Positions 9,739 through 25,175 of a stretch of DNA of 26,519 bases are shown here, piece by piece (position 1 is the first letter of the stretch; every line of letters starts with the position of its first letter). The notes beneath the pieces were generated by a model, which saw nothing but the letters and a program-made list of their open reading frames with translations, made no database searches and was not told the origin of the DNA. Source of the stretch: a virus. The DNA lies in IMG/VR virus record IMGVR_UViG_3300010413_000143, positions 1 through 26,519 of that record; one strand, 5' to 3'. The translations under genes were made by a program, and so were the position numbers.

Positions 9739-10803
9739 ATGAGCCAGTACACCCATGACAACTACATCGAGGTGAACATTTACGGGGACGCCCAGCCCGT
9801 CAACCGTAAGAGCTTCGGCCTGATCAACATGGGAACGGACGAGCTGGAGGTGGGCTTCACCACGCCCCGGATCTACTACTCGCCCACCGACGTCAGCGGC
9901 GACGCGGACCTGAAAGCCGCGGCCAAGTCGGAGGCCGCGGGATTCTTCAACCAGAATCCGCGGCCGCCGAAGATCATGATCAGCAAACAGGATTTCAGCA
10001 CCGGCCCGCTCCTGGTGGGAACGCTGGACGCCGCGCTGGCCTATTCGGACGAGTGGTTCGCCCTGCATATCCAGGACCGGACCCAGACCGCGATCGAGGC
10101 CGCCGCCGGCTGGGCGCTGACCAATCAACGGCTCTTCGGTTTCCAGACCTCCGACGCCGCCGTGAAGGCTGGCACCCCCGCCAACGTGATGCTGACGATC
10201 CAGGCGCTGGCCAACGGCTACACGTTCGGCAACTGGCACGGGGTGGACGCGGAGCCGCTGGCCCTGGGCTACCTGGCCGCCGGGCTCTGGCCCGACCCCG
10301 ATCAGAAGTCCGGGGGCTGGTACCACAAGCCGCTGATCGGTTTCAGCGGCAACACCCTGACGCCCACCGAAGGCCAGGCCGTGCTGGACGCCGGAGGAAA
10401 CATCTTCGGCCCGCTCCTGGGGGTCAACAACATGAATCCCGGGCTACTCTTCGACGAGAGCCCGATCGAGTCCCTGATCATCCGGGAGTGGTTCAAAGCG
10501 CGCCTCCGCGAGGATATCGCCCAGCTCCAGCTGGACTATTCCAAGCGCGGCGAGCGGATCCCGTTCGACAACCGCGGCCTGGCCCTGATCGGCGGCCGCT
10601 GCTACGCCGTGGGAACCCGCGGCGAGCGGATCGGCCACTTCCGCCCGGGCTCCGTTCGGGTGACCGTGCCCGATATCGCCGACGTGGCGCCGGCGGACGT
10701 GGTGGAGCGCCACGCCACGCTGACCGTGGAAGCCGTCGAGAGCCGCGGGATCCAAAAGATCACGCTCAACGTGGGGGTGCTGGCCAACGAGCCGGCCAGC
10801 TGA
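9739..10803 (+). CDS. Contractile tail sheath protein (DUF3383-like)
   Basis: A 354-aa protein that would polymerise around the tail tube and contract on infection. It fits the DUF3383 group of short sheath proteins. The N-terminus has VNIYGDAQPVNRKSFGLINMG, the middle ALAYSDEWFALHIQDRTQ. Later come AALGYLAAGL-like segments and a C-terminal ARLREDIAQLQLDYSKRGERIPFDNRGLALI, typical of the conserved sheath core. It is clearly shorter than T4-type sheaths, consistent with a simplified contractile tail. A GAGGAG SD lies before ATG 9739. The tube gene follows. Confidence 0.85.
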   Translation: MSQYTHDNYIEVNIYGDAQPVNRKSFGLINMGTDELEVGFTTPRIYYSPTDVSGDADLKAAAKSEAAGFFNQNPRPPKIMISKQDFSTGPLLVGTLDAALAYSDEWFALHIQDRTQTAIEAAAGWALTNQRLFGFQTSDAAVKAGTPANVMLTIQALANGYTFGNWHGVDAEPLALGYLAAGLWPDPDQKSGGWYHKPLIGFSGNTLTPTEGQAVLDAGGNIFGPLLGVNNMNPGLLFDESPIESLIIREWFKARLREDIAQLQLDYSKRGERIPFDNRGLALIGGRCYAVGTRGERIGHFRPGSVRVTVPDIADVAPADVVERHATLTVEAVESRGIQKITLNVGVLANEPAS

Positions 10804-10868: not shown

Positions 10869-11300
10869 ATGACCCGCCACTACAACTTCGAAGACGTGGT
10901 TTGCATGATCGCGGGGATTTCGATCACGGAGTTCGCCGAGGGGGACGCGATCGAGATCACGCGGCCGCAAAAGAAAAAGTACGAGAAGACCCAGGGCTCC
11001 CACGGCTCCGTGATGCGATCCAAGCAGTTCACGAACCTGGCAGAGATCAAGGTCATGCTCATGCAGGGGAGCCCGATCCACACCCAGCTCCAGGAGCTCG
11101 CCGACCGCGACGAGGAGACCGGCCAGGGTACCGGCGAGTTCTACGTGAAGGACACCAACGGAACCACCCAGGCCGTGGCCCCCGTGTGCTGGATCGAGGA
11201 AGAGCCGGACATGAAGTTCGCCAACACCGCGGGGACCATTGAATGGCTCTTCGGTGCTGGTAATCTCAAGTTCACCCAGGGAGAGAACCGCCTGGCCTAG
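10869..11300 (+). CDS. Tail tube protein (DUF3277-like)
   Basis: A 143-aa protein with the usual length and look of myovirus tube proteins. It begins MTRHYNFEDVVCMIAGISITEFAEGDAIEI, then QGSHGSVMRSKQFTNLAEIKVMLMQGSP, and ends with ANTAGTIEWLFGAGNL. The repeating beta-strand pattern matches the DUF3277 tube family that stacks as hexamers inside the sheath. AGGAGGAG lies 10-17 bases before ATG 10869. Directly after the sheath gene, as is usual. Confidence 0.85.
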   Translation: MTRHYNFEDVVCMIAGISITEFAEGDAIEITRPQKKKYEKTQGSHGSVMRSKQFTNLAEIKVMLMQGSPIHTQLQELADRDEETGQGTGEFYVKDTNGTTQAVAPVCWIEEEPDMKFANTAGTIEWLFGAGNLKFTQGENRLA

Positions 11301-11378: not shown

Positions 11379-11987
11379 ATGTCCCAGCACGCAATCACCA
11401 CCACCATCAAATCCGTGTGGCCCTCCGGCGAGGAGCACACCTACACCACGATCCCGCTGGGCTTTGACGAGTCCGGCGAGCTCGCCTTGAAGCTGGGCAA
11501 AATCACCGCCGGCCCGCTGGGCGACGTGTTCGGCTCCGTGATGCGCCACCTTTCAGTGGCCGACACCGTAAAGCTGGCAGAGGCAAAGGAGGCCGGCGAG
11601 CTCGAGGAGCTCGCGGCCGCGGCCGCGGAATCGGAGGACATTCTGGACGGGGTGGACGCCGGCGCCGTGCTGGACCGCCTGGTCAGCGGAATCATCGAAG
11701 CCGGAGGCATGGAGCTGATCGCAGAGATCCTCCACAACACGATCCGCAACACGGAAGCCACTGGCAAGCGCGCGGCGCAAAAGCTCCGCCTGAAAGACAA
11801 GACCGCCAGGGATCAGGCCTACGCTGGAGGCAACCAGGGGGAGGCAGCCAAGGCCGTGGCCTGGGTGCTGGCCGTGAACTACGCCCCTTTTTTGATGGGA
11901 CGTTCCTGGAGCTTCGGCGACGCCTGGTCATTCTTGCGAACCGCATTAAACGAGGCCCGCCAGGACAGCGCACCGATCGAGAAGTAG
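11379..11987 (+). CDS. Tail assembly chaperone, short (unshifted) form
   Basis: A 202-aa protein starting at ATG 11379 behind GAGGAGAGG. The N-terminal 60 residues form a small beta-rich domain (TTTIKSVWPSGEEHTYTTIPLGF), followed by an acidic helical region (ELEELAAAAAESEDILDGVDAGAVLDRLV). It sits between tail tube and tape measure. This is the standard place for tail assembly chaperones, which coat the tape measure during tail assembly and are absent from the virion. A slippery heptamer at 11888-11894 lets part of the ribosomes shift to the -1 frame, giving a longer second product. The zero-frame product ends with a Ser/Ala/Pro/Lys tail, NEARQDSAPIEK. Confidence 0.8.
   Translation: MSQHAITTTIKSVWPSGEEHTYTTIPLGFDESGELALKLGKITAGPLGDVFGSVMRHLSVADTVKLAEAKEAGELEELAAAAAESEDILDGVDAGAVLDRLVSGIIEAGGMELIAEILHNTIRNTEATGKRAAQKLRLKDKTARDQAYAGGNQGEAAKAVAWVLAVNYAPFLMGRSWSFGDAWSFLRTALNEARQDSAPIEK
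11888..11894 (+). promoter_or_regulatory. -1 programmed ribosomal frameshift site
   Basis: The sequence T TTT TTG in the zero frame (codons CCT TTT TTG ATG) is a perfect X XXY YYZ slippery heptamer: both tRNAs can re-pair one base back on TTT TTT. From the next codon, GAT at 11894, the -1 frame is open through to a stop at 12200-12202. This is the G/GT arrangement known from many tail assembly chaperone genes. Confidence 0.85.
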
Positions 11988-12202
11988 CCGCGGAGCTCGA
12001 GGCGGAGCAGGCCTGGCGCGATCAAGTTCTGGACGAAATCGCCGAAGCAGTCCCCAGCAAGCACTGGAGAGGGTGGGAGTTTTGGAGGGTGACCACCCAA
12101 GGCGGAGCAGACCCCCGCGAGGTGGCCCGGGAGTGGAGCTTGATAGAAGTGTGGCTCCACTCCTATAATCTGGAGCTACAGGCGCTGATCGCGGCGCTGT
12201 AG
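11894..12202 (+). CDS. Tail assembly chaperone -1 frameshift extension
   Basis: These 102 codons are read only after the -1 shift, giving a fusion of about 274 residues (172 from the short form plus 102). The extension begins DGTFLELRRRLVILAN and continues with acidic helical sequence (REVAAELEAEQAWRDQVLDEIAEA), a Trp-rich patch (HWRGWEFWRV), and EWSLIEVWLHSYNLELQAL. It has no in-frame ATG and no SD of its own, and it exactly fills the otherwise empty interval between the short form's stop (11987) and the tape measure start (12215). In lambda-type systems the extension recruits the tail tube or tape measure; the same is inferred here. Confidence 0.82.
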   Translation, partial: DGTFLELRRRLVILANRIKRGPPGQRTDREVAAELEAEQAWRDQVLDEIAEAVPSKHWRGWEFWRVTTQGGADPREVAREWSLIEVWLHSYNLELQALIAAL

Positions 12203-12214
12203 GAACACCACACC

Positions 12215-14425
12215 ATGGGCCTGGTCAGATCACTCTTCGCTCGCATCACCACCCGCGTGGATGCCGCCGGCCTGAAACGGTACAACACCAACATAGGCCG
12301 GACCAAAAAGGAGATGACCTTTGCGGCCAGGGAGGCGAAGCGCGCCCGCCGGCAGTTCAACCAGCTTGCCTTTGCGGCCAAGGCCGCGGCCGGCGCCTGG
12401 GTGGGCTCCACGCTTGTCCGCACCTTCACAACGGACTTTGCAAAGCAGGCTGACGCGGCCGCCAAGTATTCCAAGTCGTTGGGAGTCTCTACGAAGTTCT
12501 ACACCGGACTACAGCACGGGATCGAAGGCCTGGGAATCGACGGCGAGGAGACCTCGCAGATCATCGCTGACGTGGCGGAGCGCATGTTTGACGCCAGCGA
12601 AGGGTCCAAGGCGCTGGCGGACGATTTCAAGCTGATCGGGCTGGAAAAGAAGCAGCTAAAAGAGCTGGCCAAGGCAGGCCCGGAAGCCCAGATCATGGCG
12701 CTGGCTGACGCGATCCAGCGGGCCGGCGCGAGCTCCAAGCGGACCTTTGTGGCAATGTCCGGCCTGGGCGACGTTGGAAAGCGCTTGCTCCCGCTCCTCG
12801 AGCAAGGATCAGCCGGGCTCCGCGCCCAGTTCAAGGAAGCCGAAAAGCTGGGGGTGGTCTACGACGAAACCGCGGCCAAGATGGGCCAGGATTTCAACCG
12901 CGAGCTCTTCAAGGCGCGCCAGCTGGCCAAGGGGGTACGCAACCAGATCGCCATGAGGTTGCTACCCTCGCTGATCAAGCTCCTCAAGCGCTTCGGCCAG
13001 TGGGCAAAGGAGGGGAACAACGTAGAACGCGCCCTCACCAGAATGAAGATCGCCGCGGCCGCGCTGATCCCCGTGCTGGCGATCGTGGCCAGCGCCAAGG
13101 TGGTGGCCGCTTTCGTGGCCGTGAAGGGAGCGATCATCGCCGCCGTGGCAGCGCTCAAAGCCATGGGAACGGCCGCGCTCTTCGCACAAGCAAAGCTCAT
13201 GCTGATCCCGGCGGCGCTGGCTCTAATGGTGCTCCTCCTGGAGGATATCTGGGTTTTCGCCCAGGGAGGGGACAGCCTGGTGGGTAAGCTCTTCGGCGAC
13301 TCCAAGGAAGCCCAGATCTTCCTGGACGTGCTACGGGAGATCGGGAAGCTCATGGGGGAGATCGGCGCGGAGCTCGCGCCGGTCTTCCAAGAGCTGGGCC
13401 AGCTCCTGGAAAAGCCGTTCCGCGAGCTCTGGAAGCTGATCCGGCCCCTTGGCCCCTTCATTGGAAAGTCGCTACGCTGGGCGCTGATCGGGGTGGCCGC
13501 CGTGATCTGGCTGATCCTCAAAGTCGTGATCTGGGTGATCAAGGGGATCAAGGCTATAGCGAAGTGGACGGCCGGCGACGCCACCAGCGCAGTCAAAAAC
13601 GGGCTCCTGGCCGCCTGGGAGTTCCTGGGCAAGGTGGTGACCGGAATCTGGGACGGCATCAAAGCCGCCGGAGCTGGCGCCGCCTGGGCAGTGGGCAAGG
13701 CCTGGGACGGGATCGTGTGGTTCCTCAAGACGATCCTGGACGGGATCAAATGGCTCTGGGACCAGATCGCCGGAGCTGGCAAGGCCGCCGGGGAGGCGAT
13801 CGGTTTCCTCTGGCGCGCCCAGCTCGCCGCGATCGGGGTGATTATCGCCGGGCTCCGCGCCGCCTGGGAAGGAATCAAGGCCGCCGGGAGCTGGGCAGCG
13901 GACGCGGCGCGCTCCGCCTGGAGCACCGCCACCGGCGCGATCAGAAAAGGCCTGGACACCCTCAGCAGTTGGGAGAAAACGAAGAGCGCAGCCACGGCGG
14001 CCGCGAGCTGGGTTAAAACCAAGTTCCTGGAGGCCGCCAAGGCAATCCGCGGCGCTTTCGCTTCGGTTGCCAGCAAGATCGCGGACACCCTGAAAAGCGC
14101 CGGGGGAAAGATCAAGAGCGCTGCCCGCGCTGGCGCCACCCTCGCCTCCGACCTGGTGAGCGGTAGCCAGTCAGTGGTGGCCGGCCTTGCACCGCTGCCC
14201 GCGCTGGCGCCAGAACGCGCCGCGGCCGGCGGCGCCGGCGGAGCTGGGCCTACCAATGTGACGATCCAGGCCCCGATCCGGGTGGACGGCAGTGTCAACA
14301 TGGACAGCGAGGAAGCCGCGGCGAAGCTCCAGGCCGCGGCATCCCGGGCGCTTCAAAGCGCCGTCGCTGAGAATTTCGCCGACAGAAAGCCGCTGGTGAA
14401 GCCCAAGCCAACGGCCAGCCAGTGA
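12215..14425 (+). CDS. Tail tape measure protein
   Basis: A 736-aa protein that would fix tail length and occupy the tube lumen. It is Ala/Lys-rich and largely helical. The N-terminal third resembles tape measure N-domains (FAKQADAAAKYSKSLGVSTKFYTGLQHGIEGLG, then SGLGDVGKRLLPLL). It has a hydrophobic stretch at about residues 277-350 and another at about 420-455 (WALIGVAAVIWLILKVVIWVIKGI), as is common in tape measures that insert into the host membrane. Trp/Lys/Ala repeats follow, then a Gly/Ala-rich end and a beta-like VTIQAPIRVDG. At about 1.5 angstrom per residue the tail would be roughly 110 nm. It lies right after the chaperone frameshift pair. Confidence 0.9.
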   Translation: MGLVRSLFARITTRVDAAGLKRYNTNIGRTKKEMTFAAREAKRARRQFNQLAFAAKAAAGAWVGSTLVRTFTTDFAKQADAAAKYSKSLGVSTKFYTGLQHGIEGLGIDGEETSQIIADVAERMFDASEGSKALADDFKLIGLEKKQLKELAKAGPEAQIMALADAIQRAGASSKRTFVAMSGLGDVGKRLLPLLEQGSAGLRAQFKEAEKLGVVYDETAAKMGQDFNRELFKARQLAKGVRNQIAMRLLPSLIKLLKRFGQWAKEGNNVERALTRMKIAAAALIPVLAIVASAKVVAAFVAVKGAIIAAVAALKAMGTAALFAQAKLMLIPAALALMVLLLEDIWVFAQGGDSLVGKLFGDSKEAQIFLDVLREIGKLMGEIGAELAPVFQELGQLLEKPFRELWKLIRPLGPFIGKSLRWALIGVAAVIWLILKVVIWVIKGIKAIAKWTAGDATSAVKNGLLAAWEFLGKVVTGIWDGIKAAGAGAAWAVGKAWDGIVWFLKTILDGIKWLWDQIAGAGKAAGEAIGFLWRAQLAAIGVIIAGLRAAWEGIKAAGSWAADAARSAWSTATGAIRKGLDTLSSWEKTKSAATAAASWVKTKFLEAAKAIRGAFASVASKIADTLKSAGGKIKSAARAGATLASDLVSGSQSVVAGLAPLPALAPERAAAGGAGGAGPTNVTIQAPIRVDGSVNMDSEEAAAKLQAAASRALQSAVAENFADRKPLVKPKPTASQ

Positions 14426-18597: not shown

Positions 18598-19175
18598 CAA
18601 CCGAGCCAACCAAGATCACTGACCACCAGGCGCTGGGCGATGAAGACCGCCTCAGCCAGTTCGACAACAGCCAGGCGCTCCGCGAGCTCCTCGAGGTGAA
18701 GCTGGCCCAAGTCCAGCTCCTGGAAAACGTGATCTGGGACGTGCTGCAAGGCCGCGACTTCGAGGACGCCGTGGGGGAAGCCCTCAGCCGCGCCGGCCGG
18801 ATCGTGGGCTGGCCGCGCCACGGAGTCACTGACGACGACGAATACAGGCGCCTGGTGAGGGTGGGAGCCCAGATCAACAGAGCGCAGGGGACGGCGCCGG
18901 AGATCATTCTGATCGTCAGCCAGCTGCTATCCGCCACGCTCCCAGCCGTCCGCTACATCCACAGGCATATGGCCCACTACGGGCTCCAGTGGGAGCTGAC
19001 GCCGCAATCAGACGACGACTGGATCCGGGTGATCCTCCAACAGATGCCACGGATCACCGTTTGCGGGGTATCCTGGGACATGATCGAAGGCCCGGAGGAT
19101 TCCGCTTTTACCCTGGACGATGACGATCTAGGCCTGGACGCCGGCGAGCTGGCGAGGAGAGTTGATACCCTATGA
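18594..19175 (+). CDS. Baseplate wedge/tail protein (gpI/DUF2612-like)
   Basis: A 193-aa protein that pairs with the J-like protein and usually links the wedge to the fibres. The pattern VKLAQVQLLENVIWDVLQGRDFEDAVGEALSRAGRIVGWPRHGVTDDDEYRRLVRVGAQINRAQGT is characteristic of DUF2612-type wedge proteins, where the DxxYRxLI/VxxxIxxNxSxGT motif is conserved (here DDEYRRLVRVGAQINRAQGT). The C-terminus is acidic (DDDDLGLDAGELARRV). It overlaps both neighbours by ATGA. Confidence 0.78.
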   Translation: MTTEPTKITDHQALGDEDRLSQFDNSQALRELLEVKLAQVQLLENVIWDVLQGRDFEDAVGEALSRAGRIVGWPRHGVTDDDEYRRLVRVGAQINRAQGTAPEIILIVSQLLSATLPAVRYIHRHMAHYGLQWELTPQSDDDWIRVILQQMPRITVCGVSWDMIEGPEDSAFTLDDDDLGLDAGELARRVDTL

Positions 19176-20494
19176 GCGAACGAGTACCGATCCCGGTTGA
19201 TCACACCAAGGTGGGCTGGCGCACGGACCCGGGCGGAAACACGATCACGGAGCCGCCGGCCGCAAAGCGCGCGGACGGCTACGCCTACAAAGAAAAGGTT
19301 CCCCATGATGAGCTAAATTGGGAAATGAAGCTCTGGGGGGAGCTCCTCGAGTGGCTCCGCGACTTCTGCCCGCGAGAGTGGCGCGAGCTCAAAGACGGGA
19401 TCGACAACAGCACCGCCCCCCAGCGCTTCGTGGCCACCAGGCCGGACGCCGGAAACCTCTACCGCCAATACCCGATCATCAACCAGGTGACCCAGTCCAC
19501 CTATGCGCCGATCACCGTCAAGACTGACGGCCGGCGGATCTACTACATCGACGCCAACGCCGCAGTGGAAGGCCAGAACGTGGTGGCGATGGACCCGGAA
19601 GACGGATCGCAGCTCTGGAGCGTGGCCAAAGGCTACACCCAGATCGTGGGCCTGACCTGCGACGGCGATCGAGTCTACAAAAGCGAGCAAGGCGCCAACG
19701 GAGTCCAGGTTTTGAACCCTGCGACCGGCGCCGCGATCGGCGCCGGCGGAACCCAGGGGGAGCTCCGCAACATGACCACCAATGGGTGGTTTTTGATCGG
19801 GACCTACAGCCAGAGCCTCTACTTTTTGAACAACCTGACTGGCACGATCGCGGAGACCGGCTCCGTGTCCTACGGCGCCGGGATCAACGCCACGGCGATC
19901 GACAATGCCCGCGCCTACATCGGAGGCGACGCGGCCAGTAATGTGCTCCGCGCCTATGACCTCCTGACACGGAACCTGGTTTGGCAAACTGACCCCCCGA
20001 CCACCAGTGTCCCCAGTGTGCTGGCCCTCGCTTGTGATAACCTCTACCTCTACGTAGGGATCGAACGGACGGCGCTGACCGCCGGCGGATTCTGCAACCT
20101 GCTGGTTTATGACCGGCTACGCGGCAACCTGATCCAGGCCATTGACCTGGACGCCGCGGAGTACATCTTCCACCTGGCCGTGGATCAGCGATTCCTCTAC
20201 GCCTCCGCCTACTATTCGACGCCGGCCGTCCACCAGGAGCTCCACACGCTGGACAAGCACATGGGACTCCACACGGCTACCACCCCCTACAGCCTGACCA
20301 ACCGATCGACCGCCCATGATCGCCTGGTCTACGCTTGCGACGGGGTGAGCGTGATCATGGTGGACCTGGCCCCGGCGGACCCGGAGATCCGCCGCGAGCT
20401 CATGCACCCGGCCCCGGTGATGTTCCAGCGATGCCTGGCAACGGACTACAACCGGGAGCCGTTCTACAACTGCGCGATCCCGCTGGAGTGGTAG
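19172..20494 (+). CDS. Tail fibre with PQQ-like beta-propeller domain
   Basis: A 440-aa protein. Residues about 10-65 match the attachment domain common to tail-fibre proteins: AAKRADGYAYKEKVPHDELNWEMKLWGELLEWL, the xxGxxxxxxxPxxxxNWxxxxxxxWL pattern. The rest reads as a six- to seven-bladed propeller of the PQQ/WD kind, with repeated blade signatures NVVAMDPEDGSQLWSVAKG, GVQVLNPATGAAIGAGG, LYFLNNLTGTIAE, VLRAYDLLTRNLVWQ and LLVYDRLRGNLIQAI. A propeller at the tip of a fibre would be the receptor-binding head. It overlaps the wedge gene by ATGA. The propeller call rests on repeat pattern only. Confidence 0.72.
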   Translation: MSERVPIPVDHTKVGWRTDPGGNTITEPPAAKRADGYAYKEKVPHDELNWEMKLWGELLEWLRDFCPREWRELKDGIDNSTAPQRFVATRPDAGNLYRQYPIINQVTQSTYAPITVKTDGRRIYYIDANAAVEGQNVVAMDPEDGSQLWSVAKGYTQIVGLTCDGDRVYKSEQGANGVQVLNPATGAAIGAGGTQGELRNMTTNGWFLIGTYSQSLYFLNNLTGTIAETGSVSYGAGINATAIDNARAYIGGDAASNVLRAYDLLTRNLVWQTDPPTTSVPSVLALACDNLYLYVGIERTALTAGGFCNLLVYDRLRGNLIQAIDLDAAEYIFHLAVDQRFLYASAYYSTPAVHQELHTLDKHMGLHTATTPYSLTNRSTAHDRLVYACDGVSVIMVDLAPADPEIRRELMHPAPVMFQRCLATDYNREPFYNCAIPLEW

Positions 20495-23624: not shown

Positions 23625-24311
23625 ATGCAGGCAATCAACTGCCCGCGCCGGGCTGGATTCGACACCCCAGGCGCCCTGACCATCGAAGCCGCGCGGAAGT
23701 TCAAGGCCGCCGGCTACGCTTTCGGGATTCGCTACCTGACGCGCTGGCCCGTCAAGCACTGCAAGCCCACCGCCGACATTGGGGGATGGTTCTACGCCCT
23801 CAGCCGTCAGGAGCTCGCAGATTGCATGACCGCGGAGCTCCCGATCGGAATCGTCCAGGCCGCGGACACGAAAGACGACCCCGGCAACCCCTGGGACGAC
23901 ATCACGCCGGACGGCGGCCGCCGGCTGGCGGAGTCCGCCCTAGAGCAACTGGAATGGCTGGAAGTCCCAAAGGGGATCACCGTGTTTTTCGCCGCGGAAT
24001 CCAGCCCGATCCCCGTCGCTTCCATGCTGATCGGCGCCATCGAAGCCTGGGGGGAGCTCCTGGTCAAAGGTGGCTTTCAGGCTGGCATGTACTTCGGCCC
24101 TGGCACCGGGCTGACGGCGGAGCAGGCCTGGGATCTCCGCTGGATCAACCGCTACTGGCGGAGCGCTTCGGCCGTCCCCTTCCCCTCTAACAGGGGGGTG
24201 AACATGCAGCAGGGGACGGAAATGGAGCTCTTCGGCTACGATATCGACCAGAATCTAGCTTGCATCGACGGCCACCACACCATGGGCAGGATCAGAGTGA
24301 TCGCGCCGTAG
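23625..24311 (+). CDS. DUF1906 glycoside hydrolase-like endolysin candidate
   Basis: A 228-aa protein with the DUF1906 (Rv2525c-like, TIM-barrel glycoside hydrolase-like) order: GFDTPGALTIEAARKFKAAGYAFGIRYLT at the N-terminus, then GIVQAAD. FFAAESS follows with an acidic residue E125 at the barrel position, then an AGMYFGPGTGLTAE segment with WINRYW, and a final GYDIDQN. Proteins of this fold are thought to act on cell-wall glycans. No signal peptide is present, so release would need the nearby holin. ATG 23625 follows the previous stop by two bases. Substrate and activity are inferred from fold only. Confidence 0.75.
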   Translation: MQAINCPRRAGFDTPGALTIEAARKFKAAGYAFGIRYLTRWPVKHCKPTADIGGWFYALSRQELADCMTAELPIGIVQAADTKDDPGNPWDDITPDGGRRLAESALEQLEWLEVPKGITVFFAAESSPIPVASMLIGAIEAWGELLVKGGFQAGMYFGPGTGLTAEQAWDLRWINRYWRSASAVPFPSNRGVNMQQGTEMELFGYDIDQNLACIDGHHTMGRIRVIAP

Positions 24312-24419: not shown

Positions 24420-25175
24420 ATGCTATCCACCTGGACCACTGCGACCTTGATCCACCTGGTGCTGGCCAGCCCTCCGGCCAGGCAGGCGCCGGCGGCGCCC
24501 CGGCCGGCGCCCCGGCGCCTGACGGCGCCGCCCGCCCACCGGCTGGCAGCATGGATCACGAAGATCAACCCCCGCGCCTCGAGCTGGGCGCCAACGCTGG
24601 CCGCCCGGATCATGCTGGAGGCCAAGCGCCACTCCGTTCCGCCTCGAGCTCTGGCGGCCATTGCCTGGATTGAAAGCGACTTCCGCCGAAACCTCCGCGG
24701 CCGCTTCGGGGAGCTGGGAATCTGGCAGCTCCTGGACAGTGACAGCCACCTGGCCAGAGGGTGGGATTTCGTCAGGCGCCGCCCGGGAGAGTTCCCGATC
24801 GCTGCAAAGGTTGGGACAGCCTCGAGCTGGCGCCGCTTGCCTCGAGCTCGCCGCGACTTGCTACGGCTGGACCTGGTGAGCTACACCTATCTGGCCGCGC
24901 TCGAAATATCGGAGGCCCGCTGGCTCTGCTACCGGATGCGAAACAAGCCGCACCGCTACGGCCGGCGCTGGATTCAACGATCATACTGGTACGCCCACCA
25001 GCGCCCCGGCTACCGCCTGGACCCGTTCGCCCACTACAACAGCGGCACCAGGCCGCCCCGCCCCGTCTACGTTCGGAAGCTCCGCCGGCGCGCTTGCCTG
25101 ATCGGCGCCTACCTGGACGGCGCGCGGCGCGACTGCCCGCGCGAGTCACCGCGCCTGCTACCGCGGCCGCTGTAG
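24420..25175 (+). CDS. SLT-type lytic transglycosylase-like protein, exported
   Basis: A 251-aa protein with ACAGGAGAG before ATG 24420. The first about 20 residues (MLSTWTTATLIHLVLASPPA) look like a short signal or signal-arrest segment. A Pro/Ala/Arg linker follows, then an SLT-like domain: ALAAIAWIESDF with catalytic-type E85, FGELGIWQL (residues 96-104; the G-xx-GxxQ signature), and HYNSGT at 205-210, the AxYNxG-like motif. It would cleave murein glycan strands. The C-terminus is very Arg/Tyr-rich. It may be a second lysis enzyme or a murein enzyme needed at DNA entry. Location after the endolysin favours lysis. Confidence 0.7.
   Translation: MLSTWTTATLIHLVLASPPARQAPAAPRPAPRRLTAPPAHRLAAWITKINPRASSWAPTLAARIMLEAKRHSVPPRALAAIAWIESDFRRNLRGRFGELGIWQLLDSDSHLARGWDFVRRRPGEFPIAAKVGTASSWRRLPRARRDLLRLDLVSYTYLAALEISEARWLCYRMRNKPHRYGRRWIQRSYWYAHQRPGYRLDPFAHYNSGTRPPRPVYVRKLRRRACLIGAYLDGARRDCPRESPRLLPRPL

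Follow-up and report, generated by a model that had tools for sequence, protein, structure and literature searches.

In phage lambda, a short chaperone, G, and a rare -1 fusion, GT, are encoded between the major tail protein and the tape measure protein; the partner of the short form is the tape measure protein, and that of the domain added in the -1 frame is the tube subunit (PMC5009743). In phage P2, the products E and E+E' involve a shift at TTTTTTG, with no downstream hairpin found (PMC3091744). The general -1 device of tail assembly chaperone (TAC) genes is known already, as is a conserved -1 TAC frameshift in the Vandenendeviridae and Andersonviridae, described in 2025 (PMC12846349; Pseudomonas phage Adele).

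The sequence analysed here (the window) is a complete 26,519-base IMG/VR virus record from an uncultivated phage. Comparison with related sequences makes it highly probable (about 0.93) that a programmed -1 ribosomal frameshift in this phage yields a short chaperone, TAC-N, and a longer one, TAC-NC, as a sequence-only reading of the window had proposed. A short chaperone and a rare -1 fusion, placed between the major tail protein and the tape measure protein, would be shared with lambda, but the lambda tail is non-contractile. P2 and P2-like phages resemble the window in the TTTTTTG heptamer, in gene order and in having no downstream hairpin, but by Pfam match the P2 chaperone belongs to another family (that of the window is Phage_TAC_15), and the P2 fusion is 142 aa long. 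The slippery sequence of lambda G/GT differs from that of the window.

Tail genes and the short chaperone

The tail genes of the window follow a myovirus order of sheath, tube, TAC and tape measure, followed by a Dit-like protein and the baseplate hub. Pfam and PHROG assignments of the neighbouring genes place the chaperone gene between those for the tube and the tape measure. The features of the region are as follows.

9739–10803, + strand: tail sheath protein (PHROG 205 tail sheath, E 4.5e-43)
10869–11300, + strand: tail tube protein (PHROG 280, E 1.3e-32; KPP10_Orf10, E 1.2e-10)
11379–11987, + strand: TAC-N, short-form tail assembly chaperone, 202 aa (Pfam PF21822 Phage_TAC_15, E 1.3e-5, residues 19–173)
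11885–11891, + strand: C CCT TTT, the clade-conserved slippery heptamer C CCT TTY (6/6 clade members, despite CCT being rare for Pro in each)
11888–11894, + strand: T TTT TTG, an overlapping second register, also that of P2 (from the sequence; T TTT TTR in 2/6 clade members)
11888–12202, + strand: predicted -1 frame extension of TAC-NC, stop included, with 104 codons ahead of the stop (the only frame with gene-like codon usage past 11987; homologous sequence in five related phages)
12215–14425, + strand: tape measure protein (PHROG 8125 tail length tape measure, E 1e-27)

The match of TAC-N to Phage_TAC_15 scores 26.2 bits against a curated cut-off of 22, and all five other members of the clade described below also match this family (best E 4.9e-11). 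In the window, the match stops right at the proposed slip point. An AlphaFold2 model of TAC-N, modest overall (mean pLDDT 62), shows a drop in confidence at residues 170–177, which correspond to the slip point and lie just past a helix ending at residue 168. Standard gene calling leaves a gap of 227 bases between the called TAC and tape measure genes, in agreement with the sequence-only reading.

Elsewhere in the window, a 342-aa protein encoded upstream of the terminase (115–1143) includes an AAA_33 kinase-like domain at residues 220–318, and a repeat of DDQADELEE units (2100–2181) forms the C-terminus of the product of the ORF at 1441–2181. A tail-region protein (19172–20494) has a weak match to PQQ_2, a BamB-like beta-propeller, which is unusual beside baseplate genes. 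Two adjoining genes (23625–24311 and 24420–25175) encode likely cell-wall enzymes, with an Rv2525c-like glycoside hydrolase domain and an SLT transglycosylase domain.

The -1 frame extension and its homologues

The -1 frame is open for 102 codons after T TTT TTG, ending with TAG at 12202, 12 bases before the tape measure ATG at 12215, exactly as had been read from the sequence. However, openness by itself is weak evidence because a contig of 65.6% GC is full of long spurious frames, and it was therefore set aside. Beyond the TAC stop at 11987, the -1 frame has a codon score of +0.21 per codon, against -0.10 to -0.59 for the other five frames, and a GC3 of 0.78.

Relatives were found using terminase (TerL), tube, hub and extension queries. 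The clade set consisted of the window and five IMG/VR phages (L011, L016, L019, L043 and L045), all with the same tail order; L011 is the same locus as L018, and L017 is a second, near-identical contig. Several loci with hub matches (among L023–L042) were left out, as they carry other tail genes or other TAC types. In three phages from the hub search, a different TAC type includes an in-frame GGGTTTTTTG, GGGTTTT or TTTTTTG (L032:3172–3181; L033:2836–2842; L040:2412–2418), its -1 extension also reaches the tape measure gene, and in L032, too, two heptamers overlap. Scanning viral contigs with TAC-N, the Dit-like protein or the tube protein as a single query gave no match. A tblastn search of named phages using TAC-N was likewise negative, and a search of a genome collection found no usable relative.

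The extension is homologous in the five distant IMG/VR phages (27–40% identity), and in each it is joined to the TAC gene at the same point. The portion past the TAC stop matches four relatives when used alone (E 2e-12 to 3.5e-6), with only weak matches found for other frames. L045 was recovered with the extension query, and TAC-N and the slip site were then seen upstream, providing an independent check. Alongside codon usage and the codon resampling described below, conservation of the extension is the decisive evidence that the arrangement is not due to chance.

Separate genes are annotated at the place of the extension in phages PAK_P3, psageK4, phAPEC8, rV5 (gp50) and PVP-SE1 (gp57), and, as far as the sequence goes, translation of the extension from an unusual start codon is possible. 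However, the -1 frame includes no ATG, GTG or TTG between 11468 and 12088, bearing out the earlier claim that the extension has no start codon of its own. The first, a GTG at 12089, is within the conserved part, and a start there would leave only the last third of the conserved extension, whereas homology among the relatives already begins at the slip site itself, with Pro-Phe. A separate gene, translated from a start of its own, is therefore a very unlikely explanation of the extension.

A frame break could also arise from an assembly error or a broken gene, the true gene being one continuous frame, and some sequencing data are prone to errors in homopolymer runs. However, the same frame relation is found at the same place in five other metagenomic contigs and in many cultured phage genomes. 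No match to L011, L016, L019 or L043 was found when the window was searched against them using blastn; this is therefore not one error copied between assemblies, and independent recurrence would be needed, making this explanation the least credible of those considered. As each of the five near relatives (5/5) has an open and homologous -1 frame that joins the TAC gene at one and the same position, the programmed -1 shift proposed in the sequence-only reading stands.

That reading had also suggested aligning the extension with chaperone T-regions; comparison with known T-domain families, folds and profiles gave no secure match. Fold searches with a model of the extension (mean pLDDT 74.6) returned nothing below E 0.6. 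It is position alone that points to a putative tube-binding role for the extension.

The probable slip site and its register

The TAC frame around the site is TAC GCC CCT TTT TTG ATG. Both C CCT TTT and T TTT TTG, which overlap by four bases, are in the X XXY YYZ register, so that the T TTT TTG heptamer reported earlier is indeed in the right frame. Among 28 genes tested, there is a single in-frame T TTT TTN and a single in-frame C CCT TTT, both at the TAC site. When the protein was held fixed, codons were resampled from contig usage and the last 60 TAC codons were scored, 0.1% of trials yielded T TTT TTN and 2.9% yielded C CCT TTN.

The codons at the site, each set preceded by C, are CCT TTT TTG in the window, CCT TTT TCG in L011, CCT TTT TGG in L016, CCT TTC GAT in L019, CCT TTT TCT in L043 and CCT TTT TTA in L045. 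Hence, C CCT TTY is present at the same TAC position in 6/6 clade phages, and T TTT TTR in 2/6 (the window and L045). CCT is a minority Pro codon in each, making up 5.3% of Pro codons in the window, 10.6% in L011, 13.7% in L016, 20.4% in L019, 11.3% in L043 and 10.1% in L045. The product of the six frequencies is ~2e-6, a figure that overstates independence given the kinship of the phages; L016 and L045, with 69% nucleotide identity, are the closest pair. Since C CCT TTY is found in all six phages, T TTT TTR in two of them, and CCT is a minority Pro codon, the signal selected in this clade appears best placed at 11885–11891 (C CCT TTT); in the window, T TTT TTG would be a second register that overlaps it.

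The sequence-only reading had named stops in the -1 frame of relatives, or a lost heptamer, as findings that would count against it. No stops were found, the frame being open in 5/5 relatives, but the T TTT TTG register is lost in L011, L016, L019 and L043. Its expectation of a slippery site conserved in relatives holds for C CCT TTY, which is never lost, but not for T TTT TTR, and as T TTT TTG is lost in four of the five relatives, the exact register needs to be moved three bases earlier.

Polymerase slippage on T runs is a known phenomenon, and the window includes six consecutive T, consistent with a change of frame during transcription rather than on the ribosome. However, the site in L019 is only CCCTTTC, those in L011, L016 and L043 include only five T, and slippage of this kind would not need a conserved CCT codon. 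Because L019 has no long T run, a transcriptional origin is extremely improbable, and ribosomal slippage remains the preferred reading.

Among animal viruses, CCCUUUU serves as a slippery site in those of Japanese encephalitis and West Nile (PMC3835772). No phage slip site named as CCCTTTT or CCCTTTC was found in a limited search of open-access papers, with most subscription papers outside it. A search for a downstream RNA stimulator that covered structures other than pseudoknots found none beating shuffled sequence (z -0.25 and +0.83 in the window; best z in a relative -1.92), and Rfam gave no match in the window. An internal Shine-Dalgarno sequence was considered as a shared stimulator and rejected; AAGGAG in L016 and GGAGG in phAPEC8 lie upstream of the site, with weaker or no matches in the others and none in the window.

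Cultured phages and the two predicted chaperones

The Vandenendeviridae and Andersonviridae share with the window a related tail module, a -1 shift near the end of TAC-N and an open extension of >200 bp up to the tape measure gene. In PAK_P3, psageK4 and Ab1, the site is at the same place, at an N-[YF]-G motif, but is GGTTTTT, unlike that in the window. The extension of the window and that of the Vandenendeviridae/Andersonviridae type are not securely related (hhalign probability 8.4%, E 0.004, 49 columns).

In the Stephanstirmvirinae (phAPEC8, alia and KP13-26), C CCT TTT TTC is found at the same TAC position as in the window, with both registers present in 4/4, and the same sequence is present in phage PsgM04F. 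The last base is C rather than the G of the window, and these are large phages of 145–150 kb. No similarity to the extension of the window was detectable in this group using tblastn. The Vequintavirinae (rV5, PVP-SE1, Hena1, KNP2, CR9, UPEC06 and 19-1-2) have the same TAC position and a -1 extension but, unlike the window, only the T TTT TTC register, with no CCC. T TTT TTC is also found in phage ENT3 and in the Rosemountvirus type (BP63 and ES2-BCU-3).

Near the end of the TAC gene, the slip site lies at an N-[YF]-G motif in all cultured groups except the Rosemountvirus type, which has QFADFF. All of these groups have a -1 frame that stays open until close to the tape measure gene; in CR9, 226 bases separate its end from the annotated start. 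An open -1 frame is also present in Psychrobacter phage pOW20-A and Vibrio phage 496E54-1, which are without a clear slip site. In rV5 (L053:951–1319), PVP-SE1 (L054:1089–1355) and PAK_P3 (L002:3985–4206), the annotation gives the -1 extension as a hypothetical gene of its own, and in rV5 the called start of this gene falls inside the slip site.

We infer that slippage occurs, at a rate such that most ribosomes would stop at 11987 to give TAC-N (202 aa). At the end of the TAC domain, a minority would slip one base back on CCCTTTTTTG and continue in the -1 frame as far as 12202, giving TAC-NC (~274 aa). Slippage of tRNA-Pro and tRNA-Phe on C CCT TTT would produce ...Ala-Pro-Phe-Phe-Asp-Gly, and slippage of tRNA-Phe and tRNA-Leu on T TTT TTG would produce ...Ala-Pro-Phe-Leu-Asp-Gly. 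Both registers enter the same frame, and the products differ in one residue (Phe or Leu). There is about an even chance that C CCT TTY is the working signal in the clade and the phAPEC8 group, with the window and phAPEC8-type phages carrying a double site. If so, the ribosome would have two successive chances to slip, one on each of the overlapping heptamers, and either would lead it into the same new frame. Assembly roles can be proposed by analogy with lambda G/GT and P2 E/E+E': TAC-N may coat the tape measure protein, and tube subunits may be recruited by the extension of TAC-NC to start the tail.

The extension is missed or mis-called by gene callers, both in the window and in the well-studied phages rV5, PVP-SE1 and PAK_P3. 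The phages in which -1 frameshifting yields two tail chaperones would come to include a clade of uncultivated myoviruses, and slip signals of differing register are placed at nearly one point of the chaperone across distant phage groups.
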